Assembly: GCA_017506865.1 (NCBI GenBank)
Contig: JAFCMP010000536.1
Location: 1,612,001-1,676,000 of the forward strand
Length of the DNA stretch: 64,000 bases
Direction of reading: 5' to 3'
Source: Tribonema minus
Taxonomy: Eukaryota > Sar > Xanthophyceae > Tribonematales > Tribonemataceae
Each line of letters begins with the position of its first letter. Position 1 is the stretch's first letter. Below the pieces are notes generated by a model. The model saw only the letters and a list, made by a program, of their open reading frames with translations. It searched no databases and was not told the DNA's origin. Below are positions 4,658 to 57,600 of the stretch, in pieces. Made by a program: the position numbers and the translations under genes.

Positions 4658-7600
4658 ATGGCAAAGGCGGTGCTCTTTGTTGTGGCGACAGCGTTGGCAT
4701 CGTTCGGCGAGGCGTTTGTCAGCCCTGTCGCCCGGAGCTCATGGACACAGGGCACCTCTTTGCGGCATTCAAGCCGTGCTTACGATAACAGAGCACATAC
4801 AATCATGTCCGATGCTGACTCCAAGCCAAGCTGGAAAGCCATTGCTGCAGCAAGCTTAGCAGCAGCGCAAGTTCTATGGACTGGCTTGCCTGCCATAGAT
4901 ACCTCTGCTTTTGCTGCTCACGCAACGGAGCAGGTATCAACAGCGATTGAGCGTGGGCCCTTCGAGGACGCCTGGGACTACACAAACAAGTAAGCACTGC
5001 TTCCGAAGTGCGATTCCGTCATGCTTCTCACGCCATACAATAGCAAGTGCGCGTTTGGCTGCTGACACGACGACTTGAGAAGGGCCCGGTTGCCCTGATT
5101 TAATTTGCTTGATTGATCATAGAATGCATGTGCCTGGAGCTGTGTGTATATCATTGGTTATTGATATGGCTGCTTTACACGTCGGCAGGTTTTACCTGGA
5201 CCGAAGCCATAACGGAAATGACTGGAGCCAGGTGCGGGAGCGGTACCGGGCGGAGATCAACTCCGGGAAGATGAACCAACGGCAGGCCACTAAGGAGGTC
5301 CGTGTGCGCCTTTCTGTTGCATCAGCGTTGAATCAATGCCATTTTGAACAACAAACTATGCGTCCAGAGCAGCTGCAGGGGCTGCTCACAAATCTGCCGC
5401 CGGTCGTGGTGCAGGCGGGCGCCTATTGTGGTAAGCTCTGGTACGGTCAAAGTTGAAGTAGCATGTGGCACCTGAACAAAGCGTGGATGTGCACAGTCAC
5501 CATTGTTCGGCGCCAACTGCCGCATCAGCATTGGTCCATGAGCATCGCTGCAGCCAGATGGTTGCCTGCATGAAGAATGGCGTTGAGCGTGGGGGCGACT
5601 GCTACTGCAGCTGACCTAGATTCATGGCCTCTTCAAGTTGAGGTGTGGAGTCTCCAGTGTCAGCCTCGTCACCCGACAACACCAAACTCAAGCATGCCCT
5701 TGTGTCATCACAGCGTAATGCGTGCATGCGCCTTCCGTCCATGGCTCGTGCAGCACTGACAACGGCGGCATGGCTCCTATCTTTCCGTTCTTTTTGCCTA
5801 CTGTGGTTATGGTGGCACTGTTTAACTCGTGGCCAACGACTGCAGCAGCGGCGACCACGGTTATTGGTGGAAGGCACTTGCGGCTAACCATCCCTTGTCA
5901 CCTAGAGCTCAACAATCTTTTGATTCTTTTTTTCATTCCGTTCGATTTAAGCCTGGAATGCCGGCTGGCTCGCTACGTATTTCTCCGATCATTGGTTTAC
6001 CACCTTGTCCACGGCCCCTGGCCCGAAGCCGATAGCTGAAGTTTAAGTTCAAGACAAGCACATGTCGTAGGTGCCATCGTGTCAGATGTACCGCTTGTTG
6101 AAGTACTTGTCTTGTTTGTGAAGTTACACCGTGTGCTGACTCGCCTCATGCGATGATGCGACGTGCACGTCTGATTTTGAGGCGCATACGCCTCGCACGG
6201 CTCAGCGCCACGCACTGTGGCCTCGCTCGACGGTCTGCGCGCTGCATCGCGACAGAGCGCACAAAACACAGCGCTTGGCATGGCTCGGCAGTCGGCGCGC
6301 TACACTGCGACAGAGTGCACTGTACATGAATGTGTGCGCCGAAACGCTCGTCTCACACCGCTGACTGAACGCCGTGCACACCTCTCGACATGGCGCCCCG
6401 ATGCAGATGCTGAACCTTCTGGGCGACAAGTACACGCGCCTCATCAGCGCGCAGGTGTACGAGAGCCTCAGCAAGTACGACATGCTCGGCGCGGGCGTCA
6501 TGCTCTCGCCAAACTCGGTGAGCGCTGCCATGAACTCTCACTGGAAATGAGCTTCCTTTGCATTCCAGTGCTTGGTGCCACTTCCTGCCATGAAGCCTAT
6601 TTCAATGTGCTTATTTTTGTTCCAGTGCTCGGCGCAGTCGTCATGCTCTCGCCAAATTCGGTGAGCACTGCCGCGAACTCTCATTCATTCATCGTAAGCT
6701 GGCTTATTTATGTGTTCAGCGCGGGCGTCATGCTCTCGCCAAACTCGGTGAGCGCTGCCATGAACTCCCAATGGAAAAGGGCTTATTGATGAAAACGAAT
6801 CAAAAGATCGTAGAGCACTAGGTGACAAGGTGTGGTCAGCCGCAAGTGCCTTGCATCACATTAATATCACAGTACTTGGTGCGGGCGTCATGCTCTCGCC
6901 AAACTTGGTGAGCACTGTCTCATCTAAAGTGCTTCTCAACATTTCAGTACTTGGTGCGGGGGCCATGCTCTTGCCAATGTCATTGAGCGCTGCCATGAAC
7001 CCTCATCGGAAAGCGGCTTAATAAATGTGCACGGCGCGAGCGTCAGGTTCTTGCCAAACTGGGTGAGCACTGCCATGAAACTCATTGGAAAGTGGCTAAT
7101 TGACACCTCAAAGTATCAGACTACAGTACTAACGCGGGCACCATGCTCTCGCCAAACTCGGTGAGCACTGGCATGAGCACTTTATCCAGCAGCCCTTCAT
7201 CATGAATAGCATCACTTCGCAGCACTCGTGGCACCAGCGGCAGCAGCAGGCGGCGACGGCAGAATATACGGGCGGGCGGACCACGTCATGTAATGGGGGG
7301 GCGAGGCATGCAGTTGAAGTTTTCAACGCCGGAAGTGGCCATGGGCGGCGCCGCGACCGACAGCCTCCCCTCCCGAATCAAAAGAGCAGGCGACACAGAC
7401 CATAAAAGAGCAGGCGTGGCAGAAGACAAGGGCTGCTGCTGCTGCTACCGCTGCTGGTCGGTGCCGCCTGCTTCTTTGATTCAGAAGGGAAGGCTGTCGG
7501 TAGCGGCGCCACCAATGCCCACTTCAACTGCGTGCCTCTCCCCACAACATGACGCGGTGCGTGCGCTCTCATTGCCTGCCCTTGCGATCAGGAGGGCGCA

Positions 7601-10600
7601 CACGCCTACCTCTTCACATAATGACCTGACCCAGACGCCGTCGCCGCCTGCCGTCGCCGCCTGCTCTTTCGATCCAGGAGGGGAGGCTGTCGGTCGCGGC
7701 GCTGCCCATGGCCGTGTTGGCCGTGGAAAAACTTCAACTGCGTGCCCCGCTCCCCAAATGATGACCCGATCTGCCTGCGCTTCCCACCACATCATTTGAT
7801 CAGGAGGGGGGGACACGGCTCTCTCTTCATGTGATGGCTCACTCCGTCTGCCCCTCGTCGCCTGCTCTTTCGATTCAGGAGGGGAGGCTGTCGGTCGCGG
7901 CGCCGCCGATGGCCGCGTCCGCCGCGGAGAAGCGCGGCATCGTCAAGGGCGACCTCGTGACAGCGATCAACGGCATGCCCACGGCCACGGTGAGCGCATC
8001 GAAAATTGAGCTGCTGAAATGCACAGCGGCGCTGCGATGCCGCATGGAAATGCTCTGCGTTGCACACTCCGATCTTTGCCTCCACTGACCTGCTGTGCCG
8101 TGAGCGAGCGTGCTCAGTTGGCAGGATTTGGTCATCCACTGAACCAACTGCTGTGCCGTGAGAGCGTGTGCTCGATTGACGGTCAGAGCTTGCGCTTGCG
8201 CTTGCCTTGGTATCCGCGGCCTCTGTCTCGTGTCGTACGGCCGACAGCAGGGCATGCAGTCTGGCCACGTGGACTTACCCCAATGCTTTCATGGCTGGCA
8301 TCCAGCACCTTTGTTGCCTAGCCAACAACTACCAATGTGAAAGTTAAGAGGTGTTTTACTTGACCAAAGGCTCCTGTGACCGCTTACGCTGCGGCATCTT
8401 ACCCGGTCTTCTGTGCGCTTGCCCCCTTGCACCCCCCCTTCCAGATGACTTCTTTCGACGTCATCGAGTTCCTGTCCAAGTACCAGGAGCCCACCATCAC
8501 CTTCACCATCACCAAGCCGGACGGCGGTGCGTGCGGCTTTGCGTAGCTGCTGCCGCTTGTGTTGTGGCAGCGCGCATCGCAGCATGTTGAGCGTTGATGA
8601 TGTCGATCGTTGCGGCGACGATGGGCAGTGTGCCTTCGCCGCTCTGTCTTTCGAGGGTCACGCATACGTGCTGTTGGCGTGTTGTGGCACCTGCCACGTG
8701 CGCACGCGCGGCGCGGCGTCTGCGTATGGCGCGGCAAGCACGGCATCAAGGCACGCGGCGTGCGCTGCTGCCGTGGTGCGCTTCTAACTCGCACGCGTCA
8801 GAAGACACGCCAGTTGCACGCCCATCTTTCACTTGAAATTGGTCCAGATCCAAGTTTGTTGTAAGCGTAGATCCAAGTTTGTTGTAAGCGTGCGCCACCT
8901 GCACCCCCAGGAAGAGGTCGCGCGGCGCCTTCTCTCACAACACCAACTCACCACCGTCCCAGCCCATTCTGGTCATGCCCAAGCTCTTGTACCTGCGCTG
9001 GTAATTATGCAACTGCTTTCACATGGAACCTATGCACTACAACTGATGCTTTATGCTTAGCTGATCAGAGGTCCTGCCACTCTGCATGGAACAGGGTCGG
9101 AACGTGTGGTGGAGCTGCAGCGCTCGTTTCAGAAGGTCTCCGATCCTGTCGAGTACAGCCTGGAGGCCAAGGATGGGCACAAGGCAGGTGCCGGCACGCC
9201 TCAGTACAAGGGCTTGAATGCGAGTGACAAAAGCATGTGACTCACCGATAGACCTCATATACGTTGAAGTTTGCCGAGAGGTGCTGTACATGTGCGCATT
9301 CAAAGAAGCTGTGCATTCTGACCTGTGGATAAGCCATAGAAGCTCCTTACTCAGTGGTCGCATCGATGTTGTTGATTGTATCCTGATGGACTTCAAACTA
9401 TTACAATGTTTGAATCTGATAAAAATGTTTCACGGGCAGTTAGCGCATCGAAGTGTCAAATGATAGTGTATCGTCACCTCAAGAATGCGCGGCCAAATGC
9501 AGCAGTATAAATTGTTTGCAGGCTTTCGTAACATTTACCGTGAGAGTTGGAGAAGGATTTGGCTGATGATATGGTTGGCCTTCGTGATACTGGGTAACAC
9601 GAGGCAGAAGGAAGTCGGACCACATTAGGACCAGCAGTGCGCAACTGCAGCAGCAGCAGGGCTCCATCGCGCTCGCGCGCAGCCATCAACCCCCCCCCCC
9701 CCCCAATACTCCCCCCCTACACACACCTGAGCACTGCCATGCTGAGCGCTGCCACATTGCTGTGTGTGCGTGCGCGTAATGGCGCAGGTGGGCTACATGC
9801 GCATTAAGGAGTTCAACGCCGTCGTGGTGGACAAGGTCCGCGAGGTGAGCAGGCGCGCCTGCCAAGGAGCGGGTAGGTATTGATTGTGACAGTGAGCATG
9901 CCCCCTGCCCCTTGCGGGCGAGGCGTGCTGTTTCCACATCGACGGCGAGCCCTTCTTCAAGTGCGGGGGATGTTGACGTCGATGAGTGGTGTTTGCGCGG
10001 AGGCCTGACCATGTAGCGAGCGTGCTGGTGCGCATATTCTCCAAAAAGTGTTAGTAGTAGCAAGTAACTTGTACTGATTTCTTTGGTCGTCAAGTTCTGC
10101 TGACTACTGTAAGGAATGACGCGCTCTCCGGAGCAGAGGACGACGGGTGCAGCAGCGCTGGGTCCGGCTGTTTGCTGCTCATTCGGTGAGCAACTCCCAT
10201 TTGGCATGCATGCCACCAGCATTACAGCCCACTGCCGTTCTGTCCGACGCGATGTCAAGAATGAGCGACACTACTCGTTTGCATGTTGTGGGCCATATCC
10301 CCACAACGGTTCCATTTGCGCTTGCTGCATATGCTCACACTTGAAGTATGCTGCTAGTACATGCCGATATAATTGTGCGAGCGCTGCCGTGCTGTGTCTG
10401 CGTTCTGCGCGGAGGCCAGGCGCTCGTGGACTTGCAAGCGCAGGGAGCCGACGAGTACATTCTGGTGAGCACAAGGGTACCCAAAAGCCCCCACTTTTAC
10501 TTGAAATAAAATTAAATGAAACAAGTAATAAAAGAAGTGAGCAAAGGGTGCCCGACCGCCCCAACTTTCAAGTTTGCACGTAGAAGTACAAAGGGCTGTG

Positions 10601-13600
10601 GGGAGCGTACGCTCTTGTTGTATACTTCTGAACGTTACAGTGTATGCTTTATAGTATACAAATAATTTACTCACTTGAAATGATACCTGTTGCAGTATCA
10701 AAGCGACTCCAGCATTCCCTGACATGTGAAAGATTTGATAGCATATATGGCGCCATATAAGGGCACCCAACTGCCCTCAGGGTTTACTTCTTTGATGTCC
10801 TAAAGACTGTTAAAGGTGCATGTAACGTTGACAGCGCATCACAGCGGACAGGTGTTTTGTGTTTTGCACATGGTATTGTTGGCATCTCATGCTGCATTGG
10901 CATCTCATGCTGCGCTGCTCTCAGGAGCATGACAGAGTGGGCGCCAGTACATTCATATATACTTCTATGCAGCAAAGCTGTACTGAATGGCTACATGTGA
11001 ACATGTCGACTACAGCAGCACTTCACAGTATAGGAGCTCGTGCGGTGTTGAAGTTGAAGTTGGTGTGGACCATAACACACACTCCGACTCATACCCTGTG
11101 CTTGAGCAGGCATGCAGATTGGTACTCACTGAATGTGAACATGCGGAGCAGCGCTCAGCACACGGGCACGTCGGCGCTGCGCTCCACACTCCCTTCCTAT
11201 GTGTGCTGCGCCTGAGTTGTGCTGATCTGACTGTTGTGCATCACATGGGAACATCGGTACTGCACGCCACACACCTTTTCTACGTGTGCTGAGCAGTGTT
11301 GCGTTTATTGTCCTGATTGGCCTACTGTTTGTGGCGCAGATGCTGGGCCAGTGATGTGAAGGCTGATGTATAAGCCTGTTGCACCAGTCTCGCATGGTCT
11401 TTAAAGCGCAGTTGCCGCAGTGGCAGCCAGCCCGGTACAGAGTTGCTGATGCAACTGATAATTTACACTTGCTGAGCCGTGTGCTGTTTGTTACTGATTT
11501 TATTACTGTTTGTGATGTACGCAGGACCTGCGCGGAAACGGCGGTGGCGCGTTCCAGAGCGCCCTGGGCATCGCCAGCCTCTTCATGGAGAACGCGCCCA
11601 TCACATATGTGGTACGCACCGCGTGCTCGCTGTAAATGTACAGCGTCTCACGCGTTCGGTAGGCCAGCTCCAGCTGGTAGCCCAACGCACGGGGTTCAGC
11701 TCATATGCACATCATATTCACAAGGCACGGCTGGGTCAGCAGCCGCGCGCGTCAGTCCGCTGTTGGCGCTGACGCATGCACTGGGTCGCAGTTATGCCCT
11801 TGGCCTGTGAGCGCAGCCATGAAGTGCTGCTGCAGCGCCATCATTCATCATGATGTAATGTGACCGACCGCTCTGCACGATGCGAAGGCCCAGCACACAC
11901 GGGGCTGGTGCCTGCAATTCTGTCAACACAGAATGCAGAGAGAAGCTGCGCAGATCCTGGCATCTGCTGAGCGCTGCAGGCGCCTGCTTCTGTCTTCCGC
12001 CTGCTTCTGTCTTCACGCAACACACGCGTATATGCATTCAAGACGCCAATGGTGAGCACTGCTCTCACGAGCGCGATCTTGCTTGAGTGTCTACGGCGGA
12101 CACTGCAGGCACGGTCTTGCCGCAAGACCCCAACCCTAACCCTAAGGGGAGCCTGCCCGAGAGCTGTCTGAGGCCGCACGTGTGCTAAACCTAACCCTAA
12201 CCGCAACCCTAATCCTAGAAATTTGAACGACTTTGAGTAGCGCCATGTGGACAAATAACTGCTCTGATGGCGTACGTCGATGCACTCCATGAAATTCTGC
12301 TTGTGCTGCATCTGCAGATCCTGGCTTTGGTTCAGGGGCTGCACTGCGACCGTTTTTTCAGTATCATACAGCGCTCAGCGCTTGAAGGTGGGACGACACG
12401 TCGCTCGCGGGCTTCATCGTCAAAAGTTGTTTGGCGTTCAGTCATGGTCCATTGTCACAGCGCGTGCACGACCTTTAAGTTCACGCTACATGTGCACTGC
12501 TGCATCTACGAAGTTGGTCACCGCCCCTTCTGCGTTGCTTCTTCTGTCAAATCTTCAAATGTGTTACAGCGGCAGCTGGAATCATTCAACTGGACGCTGT
12601 TGGCCAGTACCCTTGTAGTGGTGTTTCCGCAAAGCTTCAATGTCTGACCAGCGACAGCTTGTTATGCCCAACTGGCACTTCAAAGTGTTCAACAGCAAAG
12701 CATCACAGTACGTCGCCGATCGCTGCTGTGCTTCTTGTTTCTTGTCCAGGTCGACGGCGACGGCAAGAAGGTTGGGTTCAACACCAAGACGGACGCCGTG
12801 AATACCAGCGCACCGCTGGTCGTGTGGATCGACAGAAAATCCGCCAGGTGTCTATGAAAGTCATACTTCAGAGTACAGGAAACAAAATACTAATCGATCC
12901 TCATGAACATACCTCTGCGAGGTAGTGGTTGTACTAGTGAAACTTTTGATACAGCGATAGTTTTTCAGGTCATTTAGTGTACATTGCAATCTGTTGCTAC
13001 TTGCATCTGCGGTCAGAAGTGCAGGCGTGCCTGCCCATGGTGAAGCACTGACAGAACATCTAGTCGACTGCGCAGTACACTTGATGATTGCAGCGGTGCA
13101 AAACTGAAGCGCGGCAGAGCATACGTAGACACCACTGCAAAACAGTTCAGAAAGCAGAGTCGCACTAGCAAGCGCGAGGGTTATCCAGAGGATTTTCGGT
13201 CGATCCACACGAGCAGCGGCACACTGGCGTTAATCGCAGCCAGCACAGCGCTGCTGAATGAATCTGAAGTGGCAATGCTCCTAGTGACAACTGCGGCATC
13301 GCCAGATTCCCAGGTCTCATATCACCATCAGCAGCGACACTGCGGGCACACTCAGCAGCATCAACGCCGGGCGCGGTGTTTGAAAACACCGCCGCCGCTG
13401 CTTAATAGCGTCCAAAGCACTGCAAAGCGCTCAACAGAGAAGCAGACTTCAGCAGCAGATGAGTTCGAAAGCAGGTTTGACTTCGGACTCGGCAGAGCAG
13501 GCAGCATCAGCACCTGTCAAAGCGAAGTCAGATCGGGGCAGGAAGCGGTGGCATGCTCAGCACAGTCGATGGCGCTGACCATGCTCAGCACAGTCGATGG

Positions 13601-16600
13601 CGCTGACCGTGATTGGACGGGGATTCAAAAATCCCGCATTCACTTTGTCTTGGTGCCCTGCGCTGCGGCAGAGAAAATCTGCAGGAGACTTCCTCACAGC
13701 CGAGCACGGCCTTCGCTTCGCAGTTAGGGGGGGTTACAGTGTGTGCAGATGCCACACTAAGGTTGCACCGTAGTCAACCACATAGGGTTAGGGATAGGGT
13801 TAGGGATAGCCTCGCTCCGCTGGCGAGAGCAGGCATGCTCTACATACTCATACAAATGACAACTGCTTCACATACTTATACAAATGACAACCACAGCACC
13901 CACTGCCTGATGGCATGACTCAGGCGCGGCGCATCCGGCATCTACAGCTCCACGGAGTTGCACGCCGGCCTTTGCGGCCCTGCTCACAGTCTCGATCTCA
14001 TGCGCCCCGTCATTTGCAGCGCGTTCGAGGTGCTGGCGGGCTTTGCGGCCCTGCTCGCCATTGAGCATACATACATACATACATACTCTCTACGCAACGC
14101 CCACTGGCCTGCCCTGCTGGTCGCGCTTGATTGTAATGCTTGGCGCCACCGCTGCAACTGTCGCAACCTCAGAGTCGCAGACCGGCCAATGGGCCCTGCT
14201 CACCATCTCGATATCATGCGCCCTGTCATGCGCAGCGCATTCTGGGGTGCTGACGGCCTTTGTAGTCCTGCTCACATCCCAATTTTGCGTGTGTATGTCA
14301 TTTGCGGCACTTCTGAGGTACTCCCGGTCCTCGCAGCCACGCTCACCATTCTCGATCCTGTGTGCCTGTCATTTGCAGCGCTTCTGAGGTGCTAACGGCC
14401 TTCGAGGCCCTGCTCACCACCTCGAACTTGTTCATCTGCTGTGCGCAGCGCTTCCGATGTGCTGACAGGCTTTGCGGCCCTGTTCACCATCTCAATCCTG
14501 TGTGCTTGTCATGCGCAGCGCTTCCGAGGTGCTGCCGGCCTTTGCGACCCGCTCACCACCTCCAACTTGCTTGTCTGTCATGCGCAGCGCTTCCGAGGTT
14601 CTGGCGGCCTTCGTGGCCCTGCTCACACCTCCATGTCTCGCGCATGTCATTTGCAGCGCTTCTGAGGTACTGGTGGCCTTCGTGGCCCCGCTCACCACCT
14701 TGAACTTGTTTGTCTGTCATGCGCAGCGCTTCCGAGGTACTGGCGGGCGCGCTGCACGACGACTGCCGCGCACTGCTCATGGGGACGCGCTCGTTTGGCA
14801 AGGGGCTTATACAGGCCGTCTACGGGTTGGTGAGCGCACCGATATGGTGGCGGCCATTGCCATGGTGTTTGCTGCATGCTCGACGCGCCAACACCTCAGT
14901 GTATATAAACAATACACCATAGCTCATTCGGCAAGGGGCTCATACAGGCCGCATACGGATTGGTGAGCGCGCCGATCATCGCGTTTGCTGCAGTCCCACC
15001 ACGCCAGTATGCCTCAGTATACTTCCTGAGTATGCCCGATGCAACACGCTCATTGACGTGCTTGTGAAGTACCAGCCAACTGACTCAGACACGCGCTAGT
15101 CTGGCAAGCGTGGGCTTGCGAGTGCGCCGGTTGCGGCAGCAATTGCTATAGTGTTGCTGCAGGCTCAATGCGCCAATGCCTCAGTGTATATGCCCAGTAC
15201 GCCAGCTGGCGTGCTTGCTTTGGAAGGGTAACCTCAACTAACTATTGGACGCGTGCATTTGGTGATGGGTGCAAGTAGGCTGTAAAGGGAATGTATGGCC
15301 TGGCAAGCGATGAACTGATTGCCGCGGTAATCACCATGACGTAGATACATGGACACTCATCATGCCGGTGGTCGTGGGCGCCTCCGTGTATACGCCCAAC
15401 TACAACTTTCTTTGGCTGGTTTGACAGTGTTGTTGAGCATCGCTGATGAGAGGGCGCTCATCTGGGGTGGCTCTCATAGGAGCACGAGGCGTCTGTGGGC
15501 TGGCAAATTCAGAACATTGCAACCTGTGTCTCCTGGGAACTTGCATCAGCACATGACATGTCCCAAATCAAGATCACTTCGTCTGGCACTTGCCATGGCG
15601 CATGGTGTATAACAACCGTTATAACTGCCTTGCGTAATGCTGCCAATCTGTGGCCCCGGTTTGACGCATGTTCATTGGTGCTGGCTTCGGTGCATCAAAA
15701 CCCACAACAGCCAGCACTTCACTGCAAGTACAAGTCCTTCACAACATGTGTACTCGGTAGCGCAGACTTCAATTGTGACTCACCAGGCTGCTGCGCTGTG
15801 CCTCTCCCCTGCAGTCTGACGGCAGCGGGCTGATCGTCACTGTGGCGCGCTACGAAACGCCGAGGGGGACCAACATTCAGGTACCGCACTCTACACAAGT
15901 CACTGATCACAGCAGCTTGACATGCTGCGAAAAGTATCAGCAGTTGACGTGGGAAGAACATGCACTGGCAGGGGAGAGAGCAGGCGTTCAGCAGCCATGA
16001 CCCGGATGGTTGTGCTGGCCGTCGTTCGCCGGAAGTGCTCCTGCGCTGGGGTGATGTGCTTGAGGCATCGAAAGTGCGCACAGGCGACAGCACTCAGTAG
16101 GTGTGTCTAAGTGGTACGTGAGCTCTTCGGTCTATCGCCGGTTCAAGCATCAGAGGGTGTGGTCGCTGAGGCAGCGGCGGCAAACCTCAACTCTAACCCT
16201 AGGATGGCCGTTCTGCTGCATGGCTGGTGGCAAGAATTAGCTGTTGACCCCAACCCTAACTTAGCTATCGCGCAGACGAGCGGTCGCGGCCGCTCACATG
16301 ACAGCTGTGCAGCGCCTCGTATGCAGCAGCCCAAGAAGGTAATCGCCGATGTGCTTCTGCCGCTGTCGTACTGGAAGTATATACTTGAAGTAGCTGCTCC
16401 GCGCAATGCAGTGAAGCAGTTGCTGTGCAGCTGTGATCACATCAAGCAGGTCAGAGTATCTAGTTGTACTCTTCAGAGCCAGTTGCTAGCAGCACCGCCA
16501 GTACCCTCGCCTCTTCATATGCTCATATCCAGCCAACACATATGTGCACGCACCTTCACATCACCTACTGTACGTGCTTGAGCTGGCAAAGTTTAAATCT

Positions 16601-19453: not shown

Positions 19454-19487
<34 letters not shown>

Positions 19488-47010: not shown

Positions 47011-47341
47011 CCTGCCGGATCCTCCAGCCTTCGCACACAGCAGAGCCTGCTCCGCCAGCAGCCCAAGCGAACTGACCTAGAGGTGAAGTTCAGGTCGGAT
47101 ATAATCTTCTATGAAATGATCGAGCCTGCTTGGAGCACGAGCACCAGCACCAGCATCGCCTTTTCACCCCAGCACGCCACGCATACTATTGGGCTGATAA
47201 GGCGATTGCAACGACGTTGTTTCAACACAGCATACGATTGGCAAATCGCGTGACCCTCAGGCGGCGGGTTTCATGAAACGTTCGAAACGTTCAGATCGGG
47301 AGTGTATATCCATGGGGATGGCATAGCCAGATGAGTCTTAC

Positions 47342-47914
47342 TGCCGGAATGCTCTGAGATGGCGGAATGCGCAGCAGCTGTGACTGGTGGTGGCAGCAAC
47401 CAGACGTTGGGTGGCTGTAGCAGCAGCAGTAGTCATGCGAATAACCCTGGACCCACTGCCCAGCAGGCCAATCACACCCTCAATCGCCCCGGACGATAGG
47501 AGCAGCTTCCTGACAGCACCGCCGCGGTTCCAGAGAGCTTTGAGAAGCACGCTGAGCCTCACAGACATCGTGCATGACGACGCAGTGTTTGGGTCACAGC
47601 AGTTGACAACCCAGCCAGACGCACCAGCAACAGAAGCCGCAGCACTTGTAATAGCAGCAGCAGCAGCAGTAGCAGCAAGTGGAACTGCAGTACCAACAGG
47701 GGCGGCAGCATCGCTCGAGGCATCCAAGGCGGGTGGCGTGCCAGGTGCGGTTGCTGCTGGAGATACGACAGGAAACGCTGGAGCTGCACTTGCTTCCACC
47801 TCACCGACACCCAAGTCCCGGCGGCCAACGTGGTGGTGGCTGCAGCCTGAGGCAAAGATCACCCCAGCCACATCACCTCTCAGCTGCACAGGGATGCCGC
47901 CACAGCTCTCTCCC
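47342..47914 (-). CDS. Candidate upstream exon with armadillo-like segment (5' part of the kinase gene or a separate gene)
   Basis: This is an open 573-nt stretch between a good acceptor (TACCTAG|G) and a good donor (GGCA|GTAAGA). It encodes SCGGIPVQLRGDVAG near its start, then an Ala/Ser/Thr-rich spacer, then the helical segment LSVLLKALWNRGGAVRKLLL and AIEGVIGLLGSGSRVI, which looks like an armadillo repeat. Its donor phase fits an acceptor at 47072-47073 (GGTCAG|T), which would extend kinase exon 1 by SLGLLAEQALLCAKAGG in frame. If joined, the kinase would carry ARM-like sequence on both sides of the catalytic domain. The opposite strand is also open here, and the Ala run comes from a CAG-type repeat, so this stays tentative. 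Confidence 0.42.
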
Positions 47915-48637
47915 CTAGGTACTTACTACAGCTGTATAAATGTCGGGACAGTTGCTCTTTATGTTGTTGGATCAGATGCTCTCAGCGCTGGTGCTTCGTC
48001 AGCACATTGAAATCTTCTCTGCTGTCATTTGCTGCCAAGTACCAATTCTGAACAGCTCGACGACATACAGCCGTCTGCCTCATCAGCAAATTCTACTACT
48101 ATTGAGCAACAGGGTCCGCTACACGCTGAGGCAGTGGGTGGATAATGAGTGCCAAAGTGGTTGTCCTGAAGCTGCATGCGTCAAAGCATGTCAGAGCATC
48201 TGTAGAGAATGAATGCATGCATGCTATGCACCCGCCTTCTGACTAATGTAAATATGGTTATTGGCGGCCATGTCACAATGACCTCACTTCAAGTTGAAGT
48301 TCAGCAACTGCTGTTTCAAGCCGGCGAGCATGCCCGCCACAGGCAGGAGAAGCCCAGCACAAGAGCCACGTTCAGGTGCCGCATGTACTCTTGTTGCGCA
48401 ATGCGGTCGTACTCTGTAGCGAGCGATGGCCAATGGCGCGCACTGCCGACGCTCTGCACCAGCAACGAAAGGCGACTGCCTGCCGCTGCAGTTGGCGACC
48501 GCGGCATCGGCAGGATGAGCTGACGCCTGTGTCATACGTTTTTGTGGCGGCCACAGACTGTTATTAATGCTGTTGCTGCCGGACGCAAGCGCTGGTGTTG
48601 CTCAGTCCGCTGCCGTGTGTTGGCTGCCGCTGTGCAG
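47915..48637. other. Region between the divergent kinase and phosphatase genes
   Basis: Upstream exons and promoters of both neighbours should lie in this area. On the minus strand at about 48316-48507 there is a protein-like stretch (LSLLVQSV, WPSLATEYDRIAQQEYMRHL) that could be a further 5' exon of the minus-strand gene. I cannot define its borders. Confidence 0.3.
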
Positions 48638-51600
48638 GGCTGGCCAGCCCGCCCGCAACGGGCAAGCCGGCGGCGGGAGAGGAGTCGGACTCGGAGGATG
48701 CGGACGCGCCGACCATTGATGTGAGTGCATGTACTTCAAGTACTTGAAAATTCCTGCAGTTCAGAGAGGCCTCATGCTCAAAACTCTGTGTGCTGCGAGG
48801 CAGAGACGCTTGACCCTGGGAAGCAGGTCCGCCATGAGACGCGCGTCTGCCGTAATGGGTAGCTATGGCTGATGACAACTACTGTACCGTTGTCGTCTTG
48901 CACATCAGTGATCAGTCAAGTCTCAGCACCTTGAGTACTTCGAGGCGACACACATAACGCTTGTTCACTTGGTGTCGGCGTGACACATAGCGCTTCTTCA
49001 TCCGCTCTTGGGATGATCACTATGGGGATGTTTTGGCTCGAACTTGGTCTTTCCTAGTGAGGGTCTGCATCCAACCCCAGTTTCCGTTGACTTTCCATTC
49101 TGGATGACAATTTCCATGCCGCCACTTCAAATTCACCGCATCCCTGGGTTGCAGGCCAGCAGGGACACCCATCCAGCCGTTCCTAACGTCGGAGTCGTTA
49201 AGTGATGAACGCGCGTACTTTTGAGGCACGTTCGTGTGCACCTCAATGCATGCTTTCAAGCAAGTGCAGCGTGTCCGCATCAGCGGGCAAGTCCTCGGTC
49301 AGGGGGCATCGGTGTGTGGGCAGAACACGCATTGACCACTACCTACTCTCATGGACTGCGGTTCCCCCTCCCGTGCCAGTGCCGCTACTCGTACTGAGCC
49401 ATGCCGCAACTGCTTCTAAGCCGCCATTCGCTGATGTGGCCGCGCGCGTGCATGCATGCCACGCCTCTTCCTATGGGGGCTTTTGCGCCGCAGGCAGAAC
49501 GTACTGACAATCTCTCTAGTGAACTGCACTTCCGCCCTCATGTGGTTGGCGTGCCCTCGATACCCTGAGCCATGCCGCGACTGCTGCAAGGCGCCATGCG
49601 CTCATGCATCAACGTCTCTCCGCGTGCGCGCGTTCTTGCCGTTACGCGCGACAGATGAACGTCCCAGAGTGCCTGTCCATTCAGGAGGGAGCGGATCCCG
49701 CGTCGGCAAGGGGACTTGCGCCGGCGGAGAGAGTCCGGGTGAGTAGGGTTAGGGTTGCAAGATGGATCGAGGGCTAGGTTTAGGGCACCGGGGGGGCTCT
49801 GTGCTCACGCCCTTGTAGCAATGAGGCTTGCTTTGAGACAGATTGACAATGTAGCGCGTACATGTGCCAACAACAAGGGGGAGCGGGCCCCGGCTCGGCC
49901 AGGGGACTCGCGCTGGCTGAAAGAGTCAGCGTGAGTAGAAGTAGGGTTGGGGTTTAGGATGGAGGTTTGGGGTTAGGGTCGAGGCTCGGGGTTGGGGTGA
50001 GGGCACTGCGGGCTCTATGCTCGCGGCGTCGTTGTGATGCGGCTTGCATCGAGACAGATTGGTAGTGTGGCACATACAACAGGTGCCACCAACAAGAGGG
50101 CGTGGTCCCCGCCTCAGTGAGGGGACTTCCACCCGCCGGAAGGCTCAGGGTGTGTAAGATCAGGCCCAGCATGTGCAAAATCAGGGTTAGGGTTTGGGGT
50201 CAGAGTTCAAGGGCTCGGAGTAGGGCACAGCAGCCTCAGTGCTTGCAAACCTGTAGCGACGAACCCTGTTGAACATATGCGCAGCATCTTGCGCTGCAAC
50301 ATGCTCCTGCGCAACACCCTCCTCCCCCCTCAAGCCCGCACTGGTGTCCAAGCCCGAGGGCACAGTGCAGCCAGGAGTGCTGCACAGCCTGTATACCCTA
50401 AGAGCACACTATACCACCGGCCTCTCCTGAAATCTTTCCGAACATCAACTAATACGAGCCCATGAGTTCACTCAACGCTTGCTCACGGTGGCAACGGATT
50501 TGGGTTCGCCGCGCAGAACCTCAAGCGGCGACTCTCCAGCAGCCACCAGAGGGGGGCATGGCCGGAGCCGCTGCGGCGGCACGTGGACGGCGCGCTGTGG
50601 GGGCTCGCAACGGCAGTGCTCAACAGCGCAGGCGACGATGCAGCAGCGCTCAGCGCAGCAGCAGACGCAGCACCGCTCAGCAGAACCGCAGGCGGCGAAG
50701 CAGCGGCCACAGCAGCAGTGCTCAACGGAGCGGGTGCAGCAGCGCGTGGCGGGAGGGACAGCGCGGCAGCAGCGGCAGCGGCAACGGCGGCGGCGGCGGC
50801 GGCGGCGGCGGCAGACGCGGCAGCAGCGCATGCGGATGAGCCTCAGCGGAAGGGGTCTGGTGTCACAGCGCTCGGCACAGCTGATGAGGCAACGCTCGGC
50901 TGTGGTGCCGGCGCGGCAGGGCTCAGCGACACTGGCAGCGGCGGCAGCGGCGTCCTTGCTAGGGCGCAGGAGCTGGGGTCGCTGCTGGTGCGCGTGGTCA
51001 CGTGGAACCTGCAGGCGCGGGCGACGGCGGGCGCGGCAGCGCTCAGGGAGGAGCTGCTGCCGCCGCTGCAGGTACGGCGCACTGGCGTAGGCTCAGGGTT
51101 AGGTTCAGGATCAGGGCGAAGATAAGGGTTAGGGTTAAGATATCCAAGCCTTATGCTGGCCCTGATCCTGAAGTGTTCAGTGGCGGGATAGCATAGGCGG
51201 GCGGGTGTGGCAGCGCTCAGGGAGGAGCTGTTGCCGCGATTGCAGGTACGGCGCGCTGGCGTAGGCTCAGGGTTAGGTTCAGGATCAGGGCTAGGCTTAG
51301 GGATAGGATGGGGATAAGTGTTCAGCGGCGGCATGGCTTAGGCGGGCGGGTGCGGCAGTGCTCCGCGAGCAGTTGCTGCCACCAGTGCAGGTACGGCACA
51401 CTGGCGTAAGCTCGGGGTAAGTGTCAGGATCGGGCTAGGAGTAGGGTTAGGATTAGAATAAGTGATCAGCGCGGCGAGATAGCTTTGGCGGGCGGGAGCG
51501 GCAGCAGTGCTCCGGCAGCAAATGCTGCCGCCGCCGCAGTTCGACACGCTTGTGAGTTGAGGCACCACGTTGCACAGCCCCCCCCGCACGAGACGGACGC

Positions 51601-54600
51601 GCCCACTAAACCGGTTGGTTCTCGGTAGCCTCAAATGGCTGTTAACATGCGACCGGTGACCGAACATTGGGGACCGCACTGGCGCAGAAGCGCTGCGTCA
51701 GTAGCTGCTACCGCCATTGCTGGTACGACGCTATGATAACTGACAGCGCGGCCACCTCACAGCGGGTACACCAGACGCGCGCACTGACGCGATTCAAGTT
51801 GCTCACATGTCTGTGAGTGTGTCGGCTGCTGTTGTGTAGGGTGAGGGTTGACGTTGAAGTTGAGCTGCAGAAAATGTCGTTGAAGTTATGTTCTGCTCGC
51901 GCCTCTGGGCGTCTCCGCCAGCACCTTGCTGCCAGCCTGCGGCGCAAGTGCAGGGGGCATTCAAACACAGAGCACAGGCAACCGCAGCTTGCGTGCTGCT
52001 TGTGCTGTAAAGGCACCCAGTAAAGCCGGCCAATGAGCCTACAGGTGCAGATGGCACGTGTGAAGTCGCTCAGACTGCACAGAGCATTCTCATGCAGCGT
52101 CTAGCAACTCCCACGTCTCTAAGGGAAGGAGCTACCGCTCCTGGCCCTATGTCTCATTCCGTACAACTCTTCAGCCACCGCTGCTTCAGCGATGGGCAGC
52201 TTCAGGTTTACACAACACTTTCCACCTTGCTCAGCGCTCTGTCACCGCGAGCTGAACACTGCCCCCTTCCTGCTGCCGCGCATTTGCAGCACCACATCTA
52301 CGTGGTCGGCACGGAGGAGTGCGAGAACAGCATAGCCAAGTCTGTGATCATACAGGTAAATAACATGATGTTGTGTCGAGCGGCATGACTACTGCTTGCG
52401 AGATCTCTGTGCGAGGTTGTGCAGAACCGATGTCTCACGAAAGAAAGCAGAAAGCAGCGCACAGCGCACAGAATTGCCGTGAATGCGAGAAGCATTAGCT
52501 TCCGGGGGCAGCGTGTGGGGATGGCGTGTGGGGGTGGTGCGCGCCAGGCTCTAAGTCATAGTTGGGGATGGTGTAATGAAGCACTCAAGTGGAGGAGTGG
52601 ATGTGTGTGGGCAGTGGATTTTGCCCTTTCTGAGCCTGTTGCGCATCGATGAATGTGAGCTGCAAGCATCGACGTACATATTGAAGTGCACTCCTTGAAA
52701 GTTCACCTGTGACGCGTCACAGACACGATGCACTCTCAAAATGGTGTCGCTCGTCGCTCGTCTGCCTTCCCCCTCTCTCCCCCCACGCAACAGAGCAACA
52801 TGTGGCGCACACCGAGGTGTTACTGGTGCCCTTGGAAGGGTCAGACGTGTCACAGCACTCTTGTCATCCCCATTCCCCACCCCCCCTCCCCCCCCCGCCC
52901 CCCTCTTGCAGTCGAAGAAGAACTGGGATGCTCTCCTGAAGGAGACGCTGGGGCCTCAGTATGCCGTGCTCGGCCACGCCCTCCAGGCCAGCCACAACGC
53001 TAACCCTAACCCTAACCCTCCTTCCCCCCTGCCCCCCCCCGCCCCACCCCCACTGCAGTCGAAAAAGAACTGGGAGGCCCTCCTAAAGGAGACGCTGGGG
53101 CCGCAGTACGTCATGCTCTGTGGTCACGCCCTTCAGGCCAGCCACAACGTTGTCTTCGTCCACCAGGCCATCCTGCCGCTGATCAGTCGCGTCAGGTCGT
53201 TTGCCGTGGCGACGGGCCTTGGTACCAAGACCACCAAGCTGGGCAACAAGGGGGGCATTGGAATCGCTGTAGAGGCAAGTATTGGGAGCAGGGTCAGGGC
53301 CTGGCTACAATGCTGTCCCTAGCTGTGCCGCTAGTCTCAACCCTATTTGTAACCTGGCCCTGATGACTGTTGGGCAAATTCACACCCAAACCCACTCTAC
53401 TGTGATGCAGTTGTGTGCGGGCGCGCTGAATACCGGCAGTGTTGCGCGCAGGTGTGTTCACTTCATCACCTGCGTGGCTTCTCTGTCGCTGGCTGACCTG
53501 GCCCGTGACACAATCGCAACCCCACTGCTGCGCAGCGCGCTGTTGTGCATTTAACGGCATGCAGCAGGTGCCCAACGGCCAGCGGAAGCTGCCGTTTAAT
53601 CAACCACTTCAAGTACTGCTGGTACCAGCAGTACACGCCTAATGCAGCTTCGCTACATCATTCCAACAAACTTTGCCGGGGTTCTGCAAGCTCTCGAGCC
53701 CTATCATATGCAGAACTTCAAGCCCATGGCTGTTCTGCACCTTTAAGGCCAGTCAAGCACCGCAGTTCTTGAGCACACATGCGCGTGCTGTCACCCCAAC
53801 CCTAAAAATCCCCCTAACCCTGACCCTGACCCTAACCCTAACTCTAACCCTTACCTTGACCCTAATCGGTGGATGCAGGTCGGCCAGACCAAGGTGCTCT
53901 TCGTCAACGCGCACTTCGCAGCGCACCAGAACCACGTTGAAGAGCGCATCGAGCACTTCCACCAAATACAGCAGGAGCTGCTGGCCGCCTTTGGGCCCGC
54001 GTGCGACGACCAGGTACGAGCAAGCTGCGGGGTGCAGTGCTCAGGCATCAGCAGAATACTAACTTCAAGTTCACCATCCCTCCGACTTCCCCCTGCGAAT
54101 GCGAGGCCGGATGCGCTCGGGCTGTCGCAGCGCATTGCGGCTTCGACTTCGCTGATGCAGAGTTCCTCTCCGCATTTCTGGTTGGTGCGTATGGGGTGCT
54201 TGCGCTGTGTGTGCCGGCTCCATTGCACCTGAGCTACAGAAGTGGAGGAGCCGCACCCGTCTCCTACACTTCTCTAGACGAGACGATACATCACACGATA
54301 ATTGACCCCCATGGATTCATTTCTGGGCAACACAAACGACCACCAGCACGTGTTGAACATGCAGGATGATGCAGAAAAGGCACAGCATCTTACTGTGTGG
54401 GGTTGACGTCAGGGGTTAGCCAACCTTTGCGCACCAGTCAGGTATAGCAGACGATTGCTGTCCAGCTACGCACAACCAACGCAACACTTCCACTCAAAGT
54501 GCGTTGCACTCCTTGACTTGCAGCTTTGAGGAACCGCAAGAAGCCAGTACATCGGTGATTGCGTGAAGCCAGATTAAAAGCAGGAACGTCAGCTCTGCCA

Positions 54601-57600
54601 TTTGCTGACCCAGCGTCAGGCCAACCCTAACCTTCACCTAACCCTGACCCTCGGACCTCATGCTCTGACGCTCACTCCTGCCTCGACATGCTTCGCGCTT
54701 GCTCCTGTAGGACACACATCACAAATGATAGTACTTCGAAGTATCTGTATTTACATATGAGGGCCGTAAGAGGCCAGCTAGTTGAAGCATACATGGCGGC
54801 ACATGAACCAAAAACCTCTGCAGTGCCATGCCTACAACTCAGACTCTGTGCTTCAGGTCCACCCTTGCCACGACACGCTGCTTCTTGCTTGCTGCTGCAG
54901 CCACAACAGGATTGCGCAAAGGACCGGGGGGCTTGGACCACGTGATCGCAGAACCTCAAGCTGTGCCGTAACCTGGAACTTCTATCTGCTGTGCTCTGAG
55001 GCTCACTCTTGCCAAAATACACTGATTCGCAATTGCTCTTGCAGCCACCGCCGGACTGTGGGCCGCTGCGCCCCCTCGACAGCTTCGACCACGTGATCTG
55101 GTCGGGCGACCTCAACTTCCGCATCAATGCGCCGCGCCCCGTGTGCGACCTGCTGCTGCAGAAGGTGAGCGCTGACACGCGGGCGCGCGCACGCGTGCCA
55201 CGCCAGCGTCACATTCTTGTTTGTTTCCATCTTATAATGAATTCCTGGGCTGGTCAAGTTTGAAGTTTGCTAGTTGACAGATTTATATTTTATCCTATCA
55301 GTGGCAGCTGCACGGGCGTTGTGCTGCAGCACGCGGGGACTGGCTGTCGTGCCATTGAGCATATCAGCGCTCAGCACAAGGGGAACACGCGTTTGGTACA
55401 GAATGCAAAGTGCTGCGGAGTGACTTGAAGAAGCAGGAGCGCAGAGCTATTGCCAGCAGCACGAGACACGCAGAGCTGCAGCTGCAGCTGCAAAACTGTA
55501 GGCACAAATGGTAAGGCATACTCATGCGGCCACTCTACGTGCACTGGTGCTTGTGCGCTGCTGGAGGCGCAGCGGCAGATGGCATCATGCCATGCGGGCC
55601 ATGCATCAAACTGTATTTGACACCTGCAGATGAGTGTTCTCATTTTGGAAGCTCGTAAAGTCACGGCAAGGACGCAGAGCTGCGGATACTACGCGCTGCG
55701 TGCTGTGTGTAGCTGCCACTGCAGGAGGTGTGCAGCAGCACTCAAGCATTCACAACCAGTTGGCGGCATGCGCACACGCCTTGAACGACACTGTTAATCT
55801 TCTGACGCTGCCGCGGCCGCGCCGTTCTTTTCATGCGTAGCGGACAAAGTCCTTGTAGCCAACGGGGCAGGCTTGCTTCCTCGCGTAGAATAATCAGGCT
55901 CTGCAGCAAGCAATCACGGTAGGGTGGCAGCAGCTGTACATGCTGTAGACTGACGTCAAAATTTTCTGACACTGCCGTGACCGTGCCCTTCTTGCCTCCG
56001 CGCAGCGCATGCACGAAGTCCTCATGGCCAACGAGCAGCTGTCCATCGCCAGGGCTGAGGGCAAGGTGAGGGTGACATCGGTGGAGCACTGCTGTCAGAT
56101 GGCCTGGAGCTCTGGAACTTGGCCTGCGTCAGGGTCAGCGTTGCAACAAAAGCTGAAAAATTGAACTTCCATGCATTGACAAATTGAATGCATTGGAATT
56201 GTGAGCCAGACACCTGTCGAGGCTCCGTGCCATCTGCGATTCTACATGCTTGTCAGAGTGAAGTTCATGGGCTGCTGAGTCACAAGGTGGTCGCACACAA
56301 GCTTGAACAGTGTTCAGAAACGCACCAAGCTTGTGTACACACGACAGATAAAATCCCAGCTGCCAGGGTCTCATTTCGCACGTCCCCCATCCCCCCTGCT
56401 GTACCAAACAATCACAGGTGTTCGAAGGGTACCAGGAAGGCCCCCTGGGGTTCATGCCCACGTACAAGTACGACAAGGGGTGTGATGTCTTTGACACCTC
56501 GCCGAAGCAGGTGAGGCTCACCAAACAGTCCATATGTGTGCATGTATGTGTGGAATCTATGTATGTATGTACGCACATACATGTATGTAGTGATTGATGT
56601 GCGTGTGGATGCAGTGTAGGGCATGCGATGGCGTTGAAGGGTACCAGACAGAGCATGCAAAATGCAATGGGGCAGGCACTTGTGCAACATCCTGGCGATA
56701 TCTATTGCTACATGCACATAATTGAGAGGAAATATCACATAAACATGATTGTCTGTCCATACTGCGTGTCGTAAAATTTGCCTCGGCTGCACCTCTAGAG
56801 GCCACCTTCAATCTACTGACTGCCTCATTGTGCACTTACGCATCAATGGAGCATCCGTGGACATGACGCGGTCCAACGTGCATGATGCGTTTTTAAAACG
56901 CGCCTCAAGACTGTCCTATGCGACCACAAACACACCGTGCGTAGCATGAATATATATGTGCACACAATAATGTTTTGTGTCGGCGCACTGTGCGCCTCAC
57001 CCGCACACTGGTGTCCCAATAAATACCACTTGCCGCACTTCGCTAAAGTTGAAGTACATAGCACCTGAGCACTGCCTTGCATTTGTCCCTCACGGCTGCT
57101 GCAGCGCGTGCCCGCATGGACTGACAGGGTGCTCTACTGCTCTCGCAGCGGACTGGAGGTGAGTCGGGCTTTGAAGCTTCATGCCACAGTTGCTTCTAGG
57201 AGTTGGATGCAATCACTCCATTGTTGCACTTCACGTGTGCCAGATGGATCGCGTGGTGCTAGCTAGTTGAAGGCTTTGAGCAACAGCTTGCGTGACTTGC
57301 ATCGCTACAAAGTAGCAAGTCCAGGGCCACACGTGCTCCTGCAACAAAGAAAGGGCTTGCCTGAAGCAGCGTGCATAATGTGGCCCAGCTGACAGAAGCC
57401 AAGGTTGGCGCTGCTGCTGCTGAATCGTACCACTTCAAGTTGCAACCTTGCCGTAGTGCTCCAGGGCCGCATGCACAATGACATGCCGAGAGCAGCTTCT
57501 GATGCAACTGCAAGTGCTTTCCAGTGCTGCATTGCCACAAGCTCACCGGCAGAGTTCCAATCTGCGAGCTCATGCCGCCCTGCGCCGGTCATATGGGGAC

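Follow-up and report, generated by a model that had tools for sequence, protein, structure and literature searches.

Splice-junction copies in the long introns of Tribonema minus and their probable origin by duplication across exon ends

Genes and junction copies in the window

The window, which is the whole 64,000-nucleotide stretch of Tribonema minus DNA analysed here, holds three genes that were rebuilt as a curated set of 48 exons and 45 introns. These are ctpA (+ strand, 12 exons, 4658-15880, a model that stops before the last exons), a protein kinase gene (- strand, 26 exons from 44809 downward, with exons upstream of these outside the model and a last called exon that starts at 20955 and whose end was set arbitrarily at 200 nt) and an inositol-phosphatase-like gene (+ strand, 10 exons, 49655-57892, the last exon cut short). 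The joined exons give Pfam matches that run across exons: Peptidase_S41 in ctpA (8.6e-42), Pkinase over the first 7 kinase exons (1.1e-60) and Exo_endo_phos2 in the phosphatase (2.2e-67). The splice consensus in these genes is CAG/GTGAG...GCAG/G, with one GC-AG intron, after phosphatase exon 4. Two exon calls are weak, namely ctpA exon 6, without standard sites, and kinase exon 11, which lacks an AG acceptor. For phosphatase exon 2 the position of the 5' end is tentative, and the acceptor side of this exon was omitted from the copy census, the gradient and the splice-base counts.

Copies of splice junctions inside the introns of these genes are a confirmed observation. Whole-exon queries found 55 copies of adjoining junctions in 21 of the 45 introns. 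They were mapped at each of ctpA exons 3, 4 and 11, which the initial annotation had singled out as clear cases, and at many kinase exons as well, although the earlier kinase exon numbers cannot be aligned exactly with the present numbering. The features are as follows.

ctpA, with inverted copies on the opposite strand
6407..6517, +, ctpA exon 3, source of the donor-side array (gene model; repeat family 6483-7176)
6626..7181, +, six donor-junction copies of exon 3, GT in 5/6
7296..7392, -, inverted copy of the exon 4 acceptor unit (reverse-complement score 72)
7465..7730, +, two acceptor-junction copies of exon 4
7879..7989, +, ctpA exon 4 (gene model)
13190..13227, -, inverted copy of the end of exon 10 (12805-12842), 87% over 38 nt (reverse-complement score 51)
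13979..14660, +, acceptor-junction copies of exon 11, 6 or 7 by count, period about 70/139
14727..14829, +, ctpA exon 11 (gene model)
14922..15155, +, two donor-junction copies of exon 11, the farther one with GC instead of GT

Kinase
21054..21533, -, three acceptor-junction copies of the last called exon (start 20955)
22291..23288, -, three donor-junction copies of exon 24 (23536-23732)
23864..23978, -, acceptor-junction copy of exon 24
24459..24527, -, donor-junction copy of exon 23 (24617-24872)
27317..27586, -, two donor-junction copies of exon 20 (27713-27814)
29886..30229, -, three donor-junction copies of exon 18 (30320-30454)
31102..31457, -, two weak acceptor-junction copies of exon 17 (30931-31029), scores 49 and 43
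33220..33592, -, three donor-junction copies of exon 13 (33712-33828), GT in all
34653..34879, -, two donor-junction copies of exon 12 (34989-35027)
36529..36740, -, two acceptor-junction copies of exon 10 (36177-36342)
37146..37249, -, donor-junction copy of exon 9 (37309-37486)
37633..38444, -, five acceptor-junction copies of exon 9, tandem period about 183
38713..38818, -, donor-junction copy of exon 8 (38998-39098)
41978..42526, -, four donor-junction copies of exon 4 (42615-42776), period about 140
42872..43088, -, two acceptor-junction copies of exon 4, period about 136
46374..46560, -, pair of young donor-junction copies lying upstream of the modelled exons, junction read by eye (59 nt, 93% identity, 128 bp apart)

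Phosphatase
49874..50164, +, two donor-junction copies of exon 1 (49655-49738)
51196..51731, +, four donor-junction copies of exon 2 (ends 51071)
52881..52982, +, acceptor-junction copy of exon 4 (53059-53274), period about 147
54861..54947, +, acceptor-junction copy of exon 6 (55045-55164)
55802..55870, +, acceptor-junction copy of exon 7 (56006-56065)

The copies are concentrated in long introns, as first proposed: 20 of the 25 introns of at least 750 nt bear them, against 1 of the 20 below 750 nt, and intron length and copies correlate in the curated genes (Spearman 0.73). A comparison of exon edges with introns against shuffled controls, one of the checks that had been suggested for this claim, gave the following counts. 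At a score of at least 45, 60-nt exon ends matched their own intron in 13 introns out of 44, with 10 donor and 5 acceptor ends involved, while dinucleotide shuffles, 60 per intron and end, gave none at score 45. Likewise, none of 3620 pairs of exon ends and non-adjacent introns matched (60-nt ends, score 45), and reverse-complement matches of exon ends to their own introns numbered two. In the curated genes only 2 matches reached across a whole exon, against the 55 junction copies, and the arrays do not fit splice-functional exon duplication, in which a complete exon is doubled with both splice sites.

A further sample consisted of 17 other 10-kb regions with predicted exons, rather than the whole genome. 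In two of the tests on predicted exons, near-edge exons (17 and 26) and low-complexity exons (19 and 18) were removed, the 26 and the 18 being those of the test of 182 exon ends. In this latter test a local copy was found for 37/182 exon ends and for 241/3636 non-exon 60-mers, a difference of about three times; the control counts for these predicted exon ends were 0/182 for the reverse complement and 9/182 for the wrong side. Repeat families that cross an exon edge occur in 13 of the 17 regions, and some local family occurs in all 17. The junction copies are therefore present well beyond the window, as shown by a sample and not by a census, and may be genome-wide. In addition, when a 1.4-kb stretch containing a young array was searched against the genome, ignoring very common words, the matches were the stretch itself and three short places.

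Structure of the arrays

The copies form head-to-tail direct repeats with a period, as in tandem-repeat arrays; unit periods were 136-183 at five places in the three genes, and 100-183 when one further array outside the genes is included. Direct self-matches of the window are mostly local (78/95 within 1 kb), whereas inverted ones are not (4/38). The exon part of a copy spans 35-65 nt in the middle half and 24-92 nt from the 5th to the 95th percentile, close to the 25-75 nt given in the initial annotation. Donor copies include the donor site and intron flank, and the flanking intron in copies has a median of 81 nt (5-95% about 5-100, with the query limited to 100 nt). Spacing, for which curated and predicted exons were pooled and the first step was measured from the exon edge, has a median of 133 bp and a middle half of 96-181, in keeping with the recurrence every 70-200 bp noted before. 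In curated families with at least 2 copies, the distance between the edge of the source exon and the first copy is 76-251 nt.

The copies are also ordered. The decay outward from the exon that had been described was recovered, since the nearer copy scores higher in 62 comparisons against 13 in the curated genes, and in 40 against 14 at predicted exons; the nearest copy is the best one in 21 of 31 families, where 11.5 are expected. Predicted exons longer than 260 nt were omitted from these spacing and gradient counts. Of the numbers of copies claimed, one to nine, multiple copies stand, with a maximum of 7 on one intron side. In introns of at least 750 nt, the detected copies account for a mean of 21-24% of the length and for about 50% at most, so that a description of introns as built from copies suits extreme cases only and is overstated on average.

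Copies of 95-98% identity over 36-53 nt suggest that the process is not only old but also recent, and it may be continuing. Several young families, in addition, match over only 36-60 nt, with about 60-140 bp between copies uncovered. A simple tandem duplication would be expected to leave similarity along the entire unit, and thus either the intron flanks decay much faster or the event was more complex. Insertion with target duplication, which would give a short match and an unrelated spacer, was considered for the young pairs; in a paralog example the spacer resembles the flank weakly (24/54). Near-identical contigs (C90, C179, C359 and C467, with loci L011, L013, L034 and L023) were also compared for the presence or absence of copies: a weak local repeat (52 nt, 83%) was over threshold in L011 only, and the alignment contained no matching gap.

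Anchoring at exon ends

Repeat families and repeat coverage were counted after removal of low-complexity and telomere-like repeat pairs, and the positions of the families were compared with a shifted annotation. In the window, 18 of 24 families cross an exon edge, against 11.4 +/- 2.2 expected (p 0.002), and a second count gave 32 of 73 against 17.8 +/- 3.2 (p 0.0007). Because about half of the window families contain an edge under this null, the excess amounts to 1.6-2.3 fold. Other observations count against anchoring: 6 of the 24 merged window families have no edge crossing by a strict rule, 4 of the 17 other regions have no edge-crossing family, and per-base repeat coverage is alike in exons (0.20) and introns (0.20-0.22, at scores 40 and 50). 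Local matches of 60-mers were found at the lowest threshold for 0.185 in introns, 0.234 in exons and 0.207 at junctions, and at score 70 for 0.056, 0.104 and 0.107, respectively, although much of the intron signal comes from the junction copies themselves, which were left in the count; in intergenic DNA the value is 0.025.

One may argue that ordinary random tandem duplication strikes introns without regard to exon ends, that events preserving the mRNA survive, and that copies including an exon end would simply stay visible longer, since the exon does not decay. The even repeat coverage agrees with this account, as do the real constraint on exons, seen in codon positions, which prolongs detectability, and the fact that in a short intron a first duplication of 100-200 bp cannot avoid taking in a junction. 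Age classes, however, run the other way: young families cross edges in 13 of 21 cases against 5.6 expected, and older ones in 37 of 77 against 23.7 (young families of the window alone, 3 of 4 against 2.2). Stronger anchoring in young families is opposite to what easier detection of old exon-anchored copies predicts.

Simulations point in the same direction. With unanchored neutral tandem duplication the edge-crossing fraction was 0.17-0.50 in six settings and 0.35-0.44 in two, and in 6 of the 8 settings it lay under its own shifted null, while with half to four fifths of events anchored it was 0.66-0.89. The observed fraction is 0.75, with a shifted null of 0.48, and duplication, or its retention, thus seems to be anchored at exon ends. 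The observed gradient (0.83 at curated and 0.74 at predicted exons) also exceeds that of unanchored simulations (0.59-0.70). Random neutral duplication combined with detection bias is thus disfavoured by the shifted annotation, the age classes and the simulations, and we consider it unlikely. Nevertheless, the gradient stays at 0.63-0.70 in simulations with anchoring of 0.5-0.95, weaker than observed, and simulated short introns carry copies more often than real ones, from which it follows that the duplication model is incomplete. The settings were our own choice, and the model has no large deletions.

Decay of the copies and their splice signals

The identity of copies to their exons is 0.857, 0.874 and 0.768 at codon positions 1, 2 and 3, and 0.759 in the intron part; this signature shows that the copies decay neutrally beside a constrained exon. 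Many would present decoy splice sites, as anticipated: of the 55 aligned copies, 48 keep GT or AG, and 30 have a splice-site score no lower than the 10th percentile of real splice sites. Whether the copies are themselves functional, kept as splice sites, decoys or stepwise-splicing stations in long introns, was weighed as a rival reading. Besides the 48 of 55 retained dinucleotides, splice-dinucleotide bases in the curated genes match in 97/103 cases against 0.866 at codon positions 1 and 2 (family bootstrap difference 0.03-0.12). Against GT/AG dinucleotide bases elsewhere in the copied exon (323/364), however, the excess is not firm (interval -0.001 to 0.107); it is absent once predicted exons are added (178/206 vs 0.85, p 0.33), some of whose ends may be wrong, and sequence outside the splice dinucleotides decays as neutral DNA. 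We regard a splicing function of the copies as very unlikely. A first count had suggested selection on copied splice sites (54/59 donor and 54/56 acceptor bases vs about 0.80), but it was set aside as not firm after exon constraint, CpG and GT/AG content were considered, and as absent with predicted exons. Copies without a junction span were omitted from this first count and from the 178/206 count, and predicted exons longer than 260 nt from the latter.

Paralogs, gene conversion and assembly

Arrays are present in both of two paralogous prenyl-synthase genes, where 661 of the 763 bases of one intron lie within such repeats. Among the bases that distinguish the paralogs, donor copies at two junctions agree with their own paralog in 24 cases and with the other in 7, whereas for acceptor copies the numbers are 7 and 8, respectively. 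The acceptor copies do not follow their own paralog, and thus the acceptor array may predate the gene duplication. These genes also bear on concerted evolution, in which gene conversion from the exon would keep old arrays similar and would itself produce the gradient and the apparently young copies. The distal flank of copy A1 resembles the flanks of copies B1, B2 and B3 (36/58, 31/42 and 19/24) more than the flank of the exon it derives from (24/54), while around the junction 5 bases of A1 agree with its own paralog and 2 with the other; junction cores are, moreover, better conserved than the remainder of the unit. Yet the distinguishing bases are few, with the exon part of A1 matching its own paralog at 38/48 and the other at 37/48, and gene conversion alone does not account for the greater length of copy-bearing introns. 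Conversion as the general explanation is therefore possible but doubtful.

Tandem repeats are a known cause of assembly error, and an assembly or haplotype-merging artefact could in principle create copies. This origin is extremely improbable, because the copies diverge by 2-32% from the exon with codon-position structure, because edge-crossing families recur in the sampled regions at the frequency given above, and because donor copies of the two paralogs carry paralog-specific bases. Telomere-like repeats have a density of 0.009 in introns and 0.0015 in other window DNA; the reading of such repeats near junctions as break-repair scars was rejected, as the junction effect is inconsistent between the window and other regions.

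A model of intron lengthening

Taken as a whole, the observations are best explained by repeated head-to-tail duplication across the exon-intron boundary followed by neutral decay, to which we assign a probability of about 0.7. According to this model, some 35-65 nt from the end of an exon, together with the intron sequence next to it, would be duplicated repeatedly; the outermost copy would go on serving as the exon and providing the true splice site, whereas the inner one would turn into intron. Each event would add roughly 100-200 bp to the intron and leave the mRNA unaltered if the outermost sites are used, and it would displace older copies away from the exon, where they would decay neutrally. 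New copies would thus be added beside the exon, with splicing presumably at the outermost sites. The events are probably duplications at the DNA level, by slippage, unequal exchange or template switching, for which exon ends would be favoured either as starting points or as places of retention.

The two inverted junction copies, of which that at 7296..7392 is 91% identical over 68 nt to 7857-7924 at ctpA exon 4 and 85% over 98 nt to a direct copy of the same acceptor unit, count against slippage and unequal exchange, which do not make inverted copies. More tentatively, and at somewhat less than even odds, exon ends may be duplication hot spots, and a conveyor belt of fresh copies may be the main route of intron lengthening in this lineage. 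Such hot spots might be tied to splicing, transcription, exon-bound nucleosomes or replication template switching, the last of which could also yield the two inverted copies.

Relation to known systems

Minisatellites consist of head-to-tail, diverging units of tens to hundreds of bp. The junction arrays share this organisation, but each of them is bounded on one side by an exon under constraint, and a splice junction lies within the unit. Tandem arrays as a source of intron structure also link our case to a study of intron origin, which reportedly concerns alternatively spliced human introns and not exon-anchored decaying arrays as a general genome feature.

In recent human paralogs, the account of PMC2812944 describes internal tandem repeats at exon-intron boundaries and 27 intron modifications, discussed there as novel intron formation. 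As in Tribonema, these repeats span boundaries and alter intron structure, and both cases draw on recent paralogs; unlike in that account, the repeats here concern most long introns of the three genes, lie at either end, follow a distance gradient and lengthen existing introns. The initial annotation had linked the copies to intron gain by tandem duplication across AG/GT, a link that is not supported: the copies carry flanking intron, are best beside their own exon and recur in existing introns, which argues for intron lengthening and not gain. Tandem duplication is common to both, and the potato case in PMC4974935 includes existing intron-exon structure; as that source presents it, however, the process yields a new intron, classically from an exonic AGGT, whereas here junction copies pile up within an existing intron and the exon count stays constant. 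Introner elements, described in PMC7789003 for Amoebophrya with Micromonas and Aureococcus also named, similarly bring mass change in the intron content of protist genomes. In that description they are dispersed families common to many loci, whereas the present arrays are private to each junction, with no element shared between loci among the 3620 non-adjacent pairs. Thus, the arrays fit neither the AG/GT intron-gain model nor introners. Exon-anchored junction arrays as a general feature of algal or protist genomes did not occur among the matches listed in a literature search that left subscription journals and preprints mostly outside.

Implications

Intron lengthening is usually ascribed to transposons and unexplained small insertions. 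Here, genes appear to lengthen visibly without protein change through copies of exon edges in their introns. The source sequence is still readable and the order along the intron may record time, so that a single genome allows one to measure how fast, where and by what mechanism introns grow. The arrays also pose a problem for splicing, in which a real donor must be told from up to six similar downstream sites and a real acceptor from up to seven upstream. In such genomes, errors are likely both in the prediction of genes and in the mapping of RNA reads.

Junction copies in adjoining introns

Many introns of three curated genes in the window, ctpA, a kinase and an inositol-phosphatase-like gene (the phosphatase), hold copies of their own exon ends, each duplicating the end of an exon, its splice site and some adjoining intron. 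Donor-end copies were sought downstream of the exon and acceptor-end copies upstream. Of 44 introns, 13 were matched by the 60-nt end of an adjoining exon at a score of 45, a level that no shuffled intron and 0 of 3620 non-adjacent exon-end/intron pairs reached; this bears out the proposal of the initial annotation that introns contain copies of an adjoining junction. Whole-exon queries recovered 55 copies, held in 21 of 45 introns, with exon portions of 24-92 nt (5-95%), and only 2 matches extended over the whole exon. The further claim that most large introns carry such copies also holds, since they occur in 20 of 25 introns of at least 750 nt and in 1 of 20 shorter ones.

Exons were modelled by eye within the window (12 in ctpA, 26 in the kinase and 10 in the phosphatase) and by a simple predictor in other regions. 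Pfam domains continue across joined exons in all three window genes (in the kinase, across its first 7), and the splice consensus is even across them save for a few weak calls; nearly all introns are GT-AG, and a GC-AG intron lies at window 53274, at the end of phosphatase exon 4.

Direct orientation is overwhelmingly predominant among local matches, and two junction copies in the window are inverted:

Inverted junction copies in the window
7296-7392, inverted junction copy
13190-13227, inverted junction copy

Successive copies lie 133 bp apart at the median (96-181 for the middle half, counting the first step from the exon edge), and in most pairs the copy closer to the exon matches it better (62:13 for curated exons, 40:14 for predicted ones). 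Identity between exon and copy is 0.857, 0.874 and 0.768 at codon positions 1, 2 and 3, respectively, and 0.759 in the intron flank, as expected of a constrained exon beside unconstrained copies; judged from these identities, the decay of the copies appears to be neutral. A GT or AG is retained in 48 of the 55 aligned copies, and 30 of the 55 reach or exceed the 10th percentile of scores for real sites. Splice-dinucleotide bases are kept at 97 of 103 positions in the curated genes, an excess that is not firm because GT/AG bases elsewhere in the copied exon are kept at 323 of 364, and that is gone once predicted exons are added (178/206).

Copies beyond the window and probable anchoring at exon ends

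Seventeen further regions of 10 kb were surveyed, 14 at round-number contig places and three chosen for ctpA-like exons, with exons predicted by a model of coding sequence and splice sites whose training set was kinase genes plus the window itself. In a partly circular test at threshold 16, 38 of the 48 known exons were overlapped by a prediction and 32 of them were recovered exactly; false calls inside the genes numbered 1 on the correct strand and 9 on the opposite one. The regional surveys were run at threshold 17. A nearby copy was found for 37 of 182 exon ends versus 241 of 3636 non-exon 60-mers, and for 29 of 96 exons of at most 220 nt. Opposite-side matches were rarer (9/182), and reverse-complement copies of exon ends numbered 0 of 182. 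All 17 regions have at least one local repeat family, and 13 have a family crossing a predicted exon edge. Of the suggestion that the process is genome-wide, recurrence in the sampled regions stands, and its reach is that of a sample of about 0.35 Mb of 158 Mb, the genome being in 554 contigs.

In the window, 18 of 24 merged repeat families span an exon edge, compared with 11.4 +/- 2.2 under shifted annotation; in the other regions 32 of 73 do so, compared with 17.8 +/- 3.2. This excess is only 1.6-2.3 fold, repeat coverage per base is alike in exons and introns, and at low scores, with the copies themselves included in the count, intron-internal 60-mers match locally almost as frequently as exonic 60-mers do, all of which weighs against anchoring at exon ends. 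When neutral tandem duplications were simulated at random positions, the edge-crossing share was 0.17-0.50, and 0.35-0.44 in a second set, against an observed 0.75. The share rose to 0.66-0.89 when between half and four fifths of the events were anchored. All these simulations used settings of our own choosing, included no large deletions and reproduced neither the full gradient nor the scarcity of copies in short introns. In addition, young families cross an edge in 13 of 21 cases (5.6 expected; the window contributes only 4 of the 21, with 3 crossing versus 2.2) and older ones in 37 of 77 (23.7 expected), and this larger excess in young families argues that longer visibility of exon-anchored copies is not its sole cause. 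An exception to the exon-end rule is a young 319-bp tandem duplication (96%) that overlaps no predicted exon, at 3975-4623 of L045, a locus outside the window.

A paralogous pair of prenyl-synthase genes

Two prenyl-synthase genes, at loci L043 (contig C157) and L052 (C490), are 77-88% alike over their longest matched stretches, Pfam supporting the identity of the former. In each gene, donor copies accompany two junctions and acceptor copies accompany one. Self-matches take up 661 of the 763 bases of the L052 intron that separates two of these exons (1106-1868, reverse complement), with donor copies preceding acceptor copies; what is left is almost entirely the final 100 bases upstream of the following exon. 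At bases that distinguish the paralogs, donor copies agree with their own paralog 24 times and with the other 7 times, a pattern suggestive of either independent origin or conversion by the exon. For acceptor copies the split is 7 to 8, and the flanks around one donor copy resemble the other paralog's copies more than the flank of their own exon, so older arrays predating the paralog split are also possible. Within a donor-copy intron, L043:6755-6900 reads like what we take to be a fragment of plastid rpoB, probably plastid DNA inserted into the nucleus.

Other repeats

A 224-bp interspersed element (L043:3371-3594) recurs at 92-98% identity in at least 38 other places in the genome; its ends, TAGGGTTGCAAAAAA...TTTTTTGCAACCCTA, resemble terminal inverted repeats, so it is probably a non-autonomous DNA transposon. 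By eye, an intron of the kinase gene has similar ends near window 29707 and 28880. A second element of about 430 bp (L047:1819-2247; 82-86% identity, at least 39 other places) contains several copies of the motif 'cgctcttatat'. Telomere-like CCCTAA/TTAGGG 9-mers account for 0.9% of intron sequence in the window, 0.15% of its remaining non-exon DNA and 0% of its exon sequence; they are enriched beside junctions there, which is not clearly so elsewhere. The window also holds a 1.77-kb duplication (1-4632; 90% identity, 2.87 kb apart) of what reads by eye as a leucine-rich-repeat-like open frame on the minus strand; an inverted repeat pair in ctpA introns 2/3 (5865-5931 and 6792-6858; 67 nt, 87%); and, outside the three genes, a tandem pair of 100-bp units (61220-61424; 86%) whose edges look splice-like by eye. 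Exon-level matches to chlorophyll-binding proteins number 92 in the genome, which together with the ctpA gene makes it likely that this eukaryote is a photosynthetic alga.

Proposed origin of the arrays and implications

The best account of the arrays is repeated duplication of exon ends followed by neutral decay: repeated local duplication across exon ends would lengthen the introns, use of the outermost splice sites would leave the mRNA unchanged, and the copies would then decay. As a candidate reason why exon ends would be favoured, template switching could account for the direct arrays and the two inverted copies alike. On this account the arrays would behave as exon-anchored minisatellites. 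The initial annotation had linked them to duplication across AG|GT as a route of intron gain, a model that does not fit because the copies carry intron flank and sit inside existing introns; nor do they suit an introner family, since each array is private to one junction. In published work, tandem repeats at exon-intron boundaries alter intron structure in human duplicated genes (PMC2812944), and a potato gene shows tandem duplication that includes intron-exon structure (PMC4974935). In the literature searched, with much of the field outside its reach, no description turned up of exon-anchored arrays as a trait general to a protist genome.

Loci on contigs C90, C179, C359 and C467 are 95-99.8% alike, with kinase matches on the first two at roughly constant offsets, and are haplotigs or recent duplications. 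Their intron-rich parts could reveal segregating junction copies.
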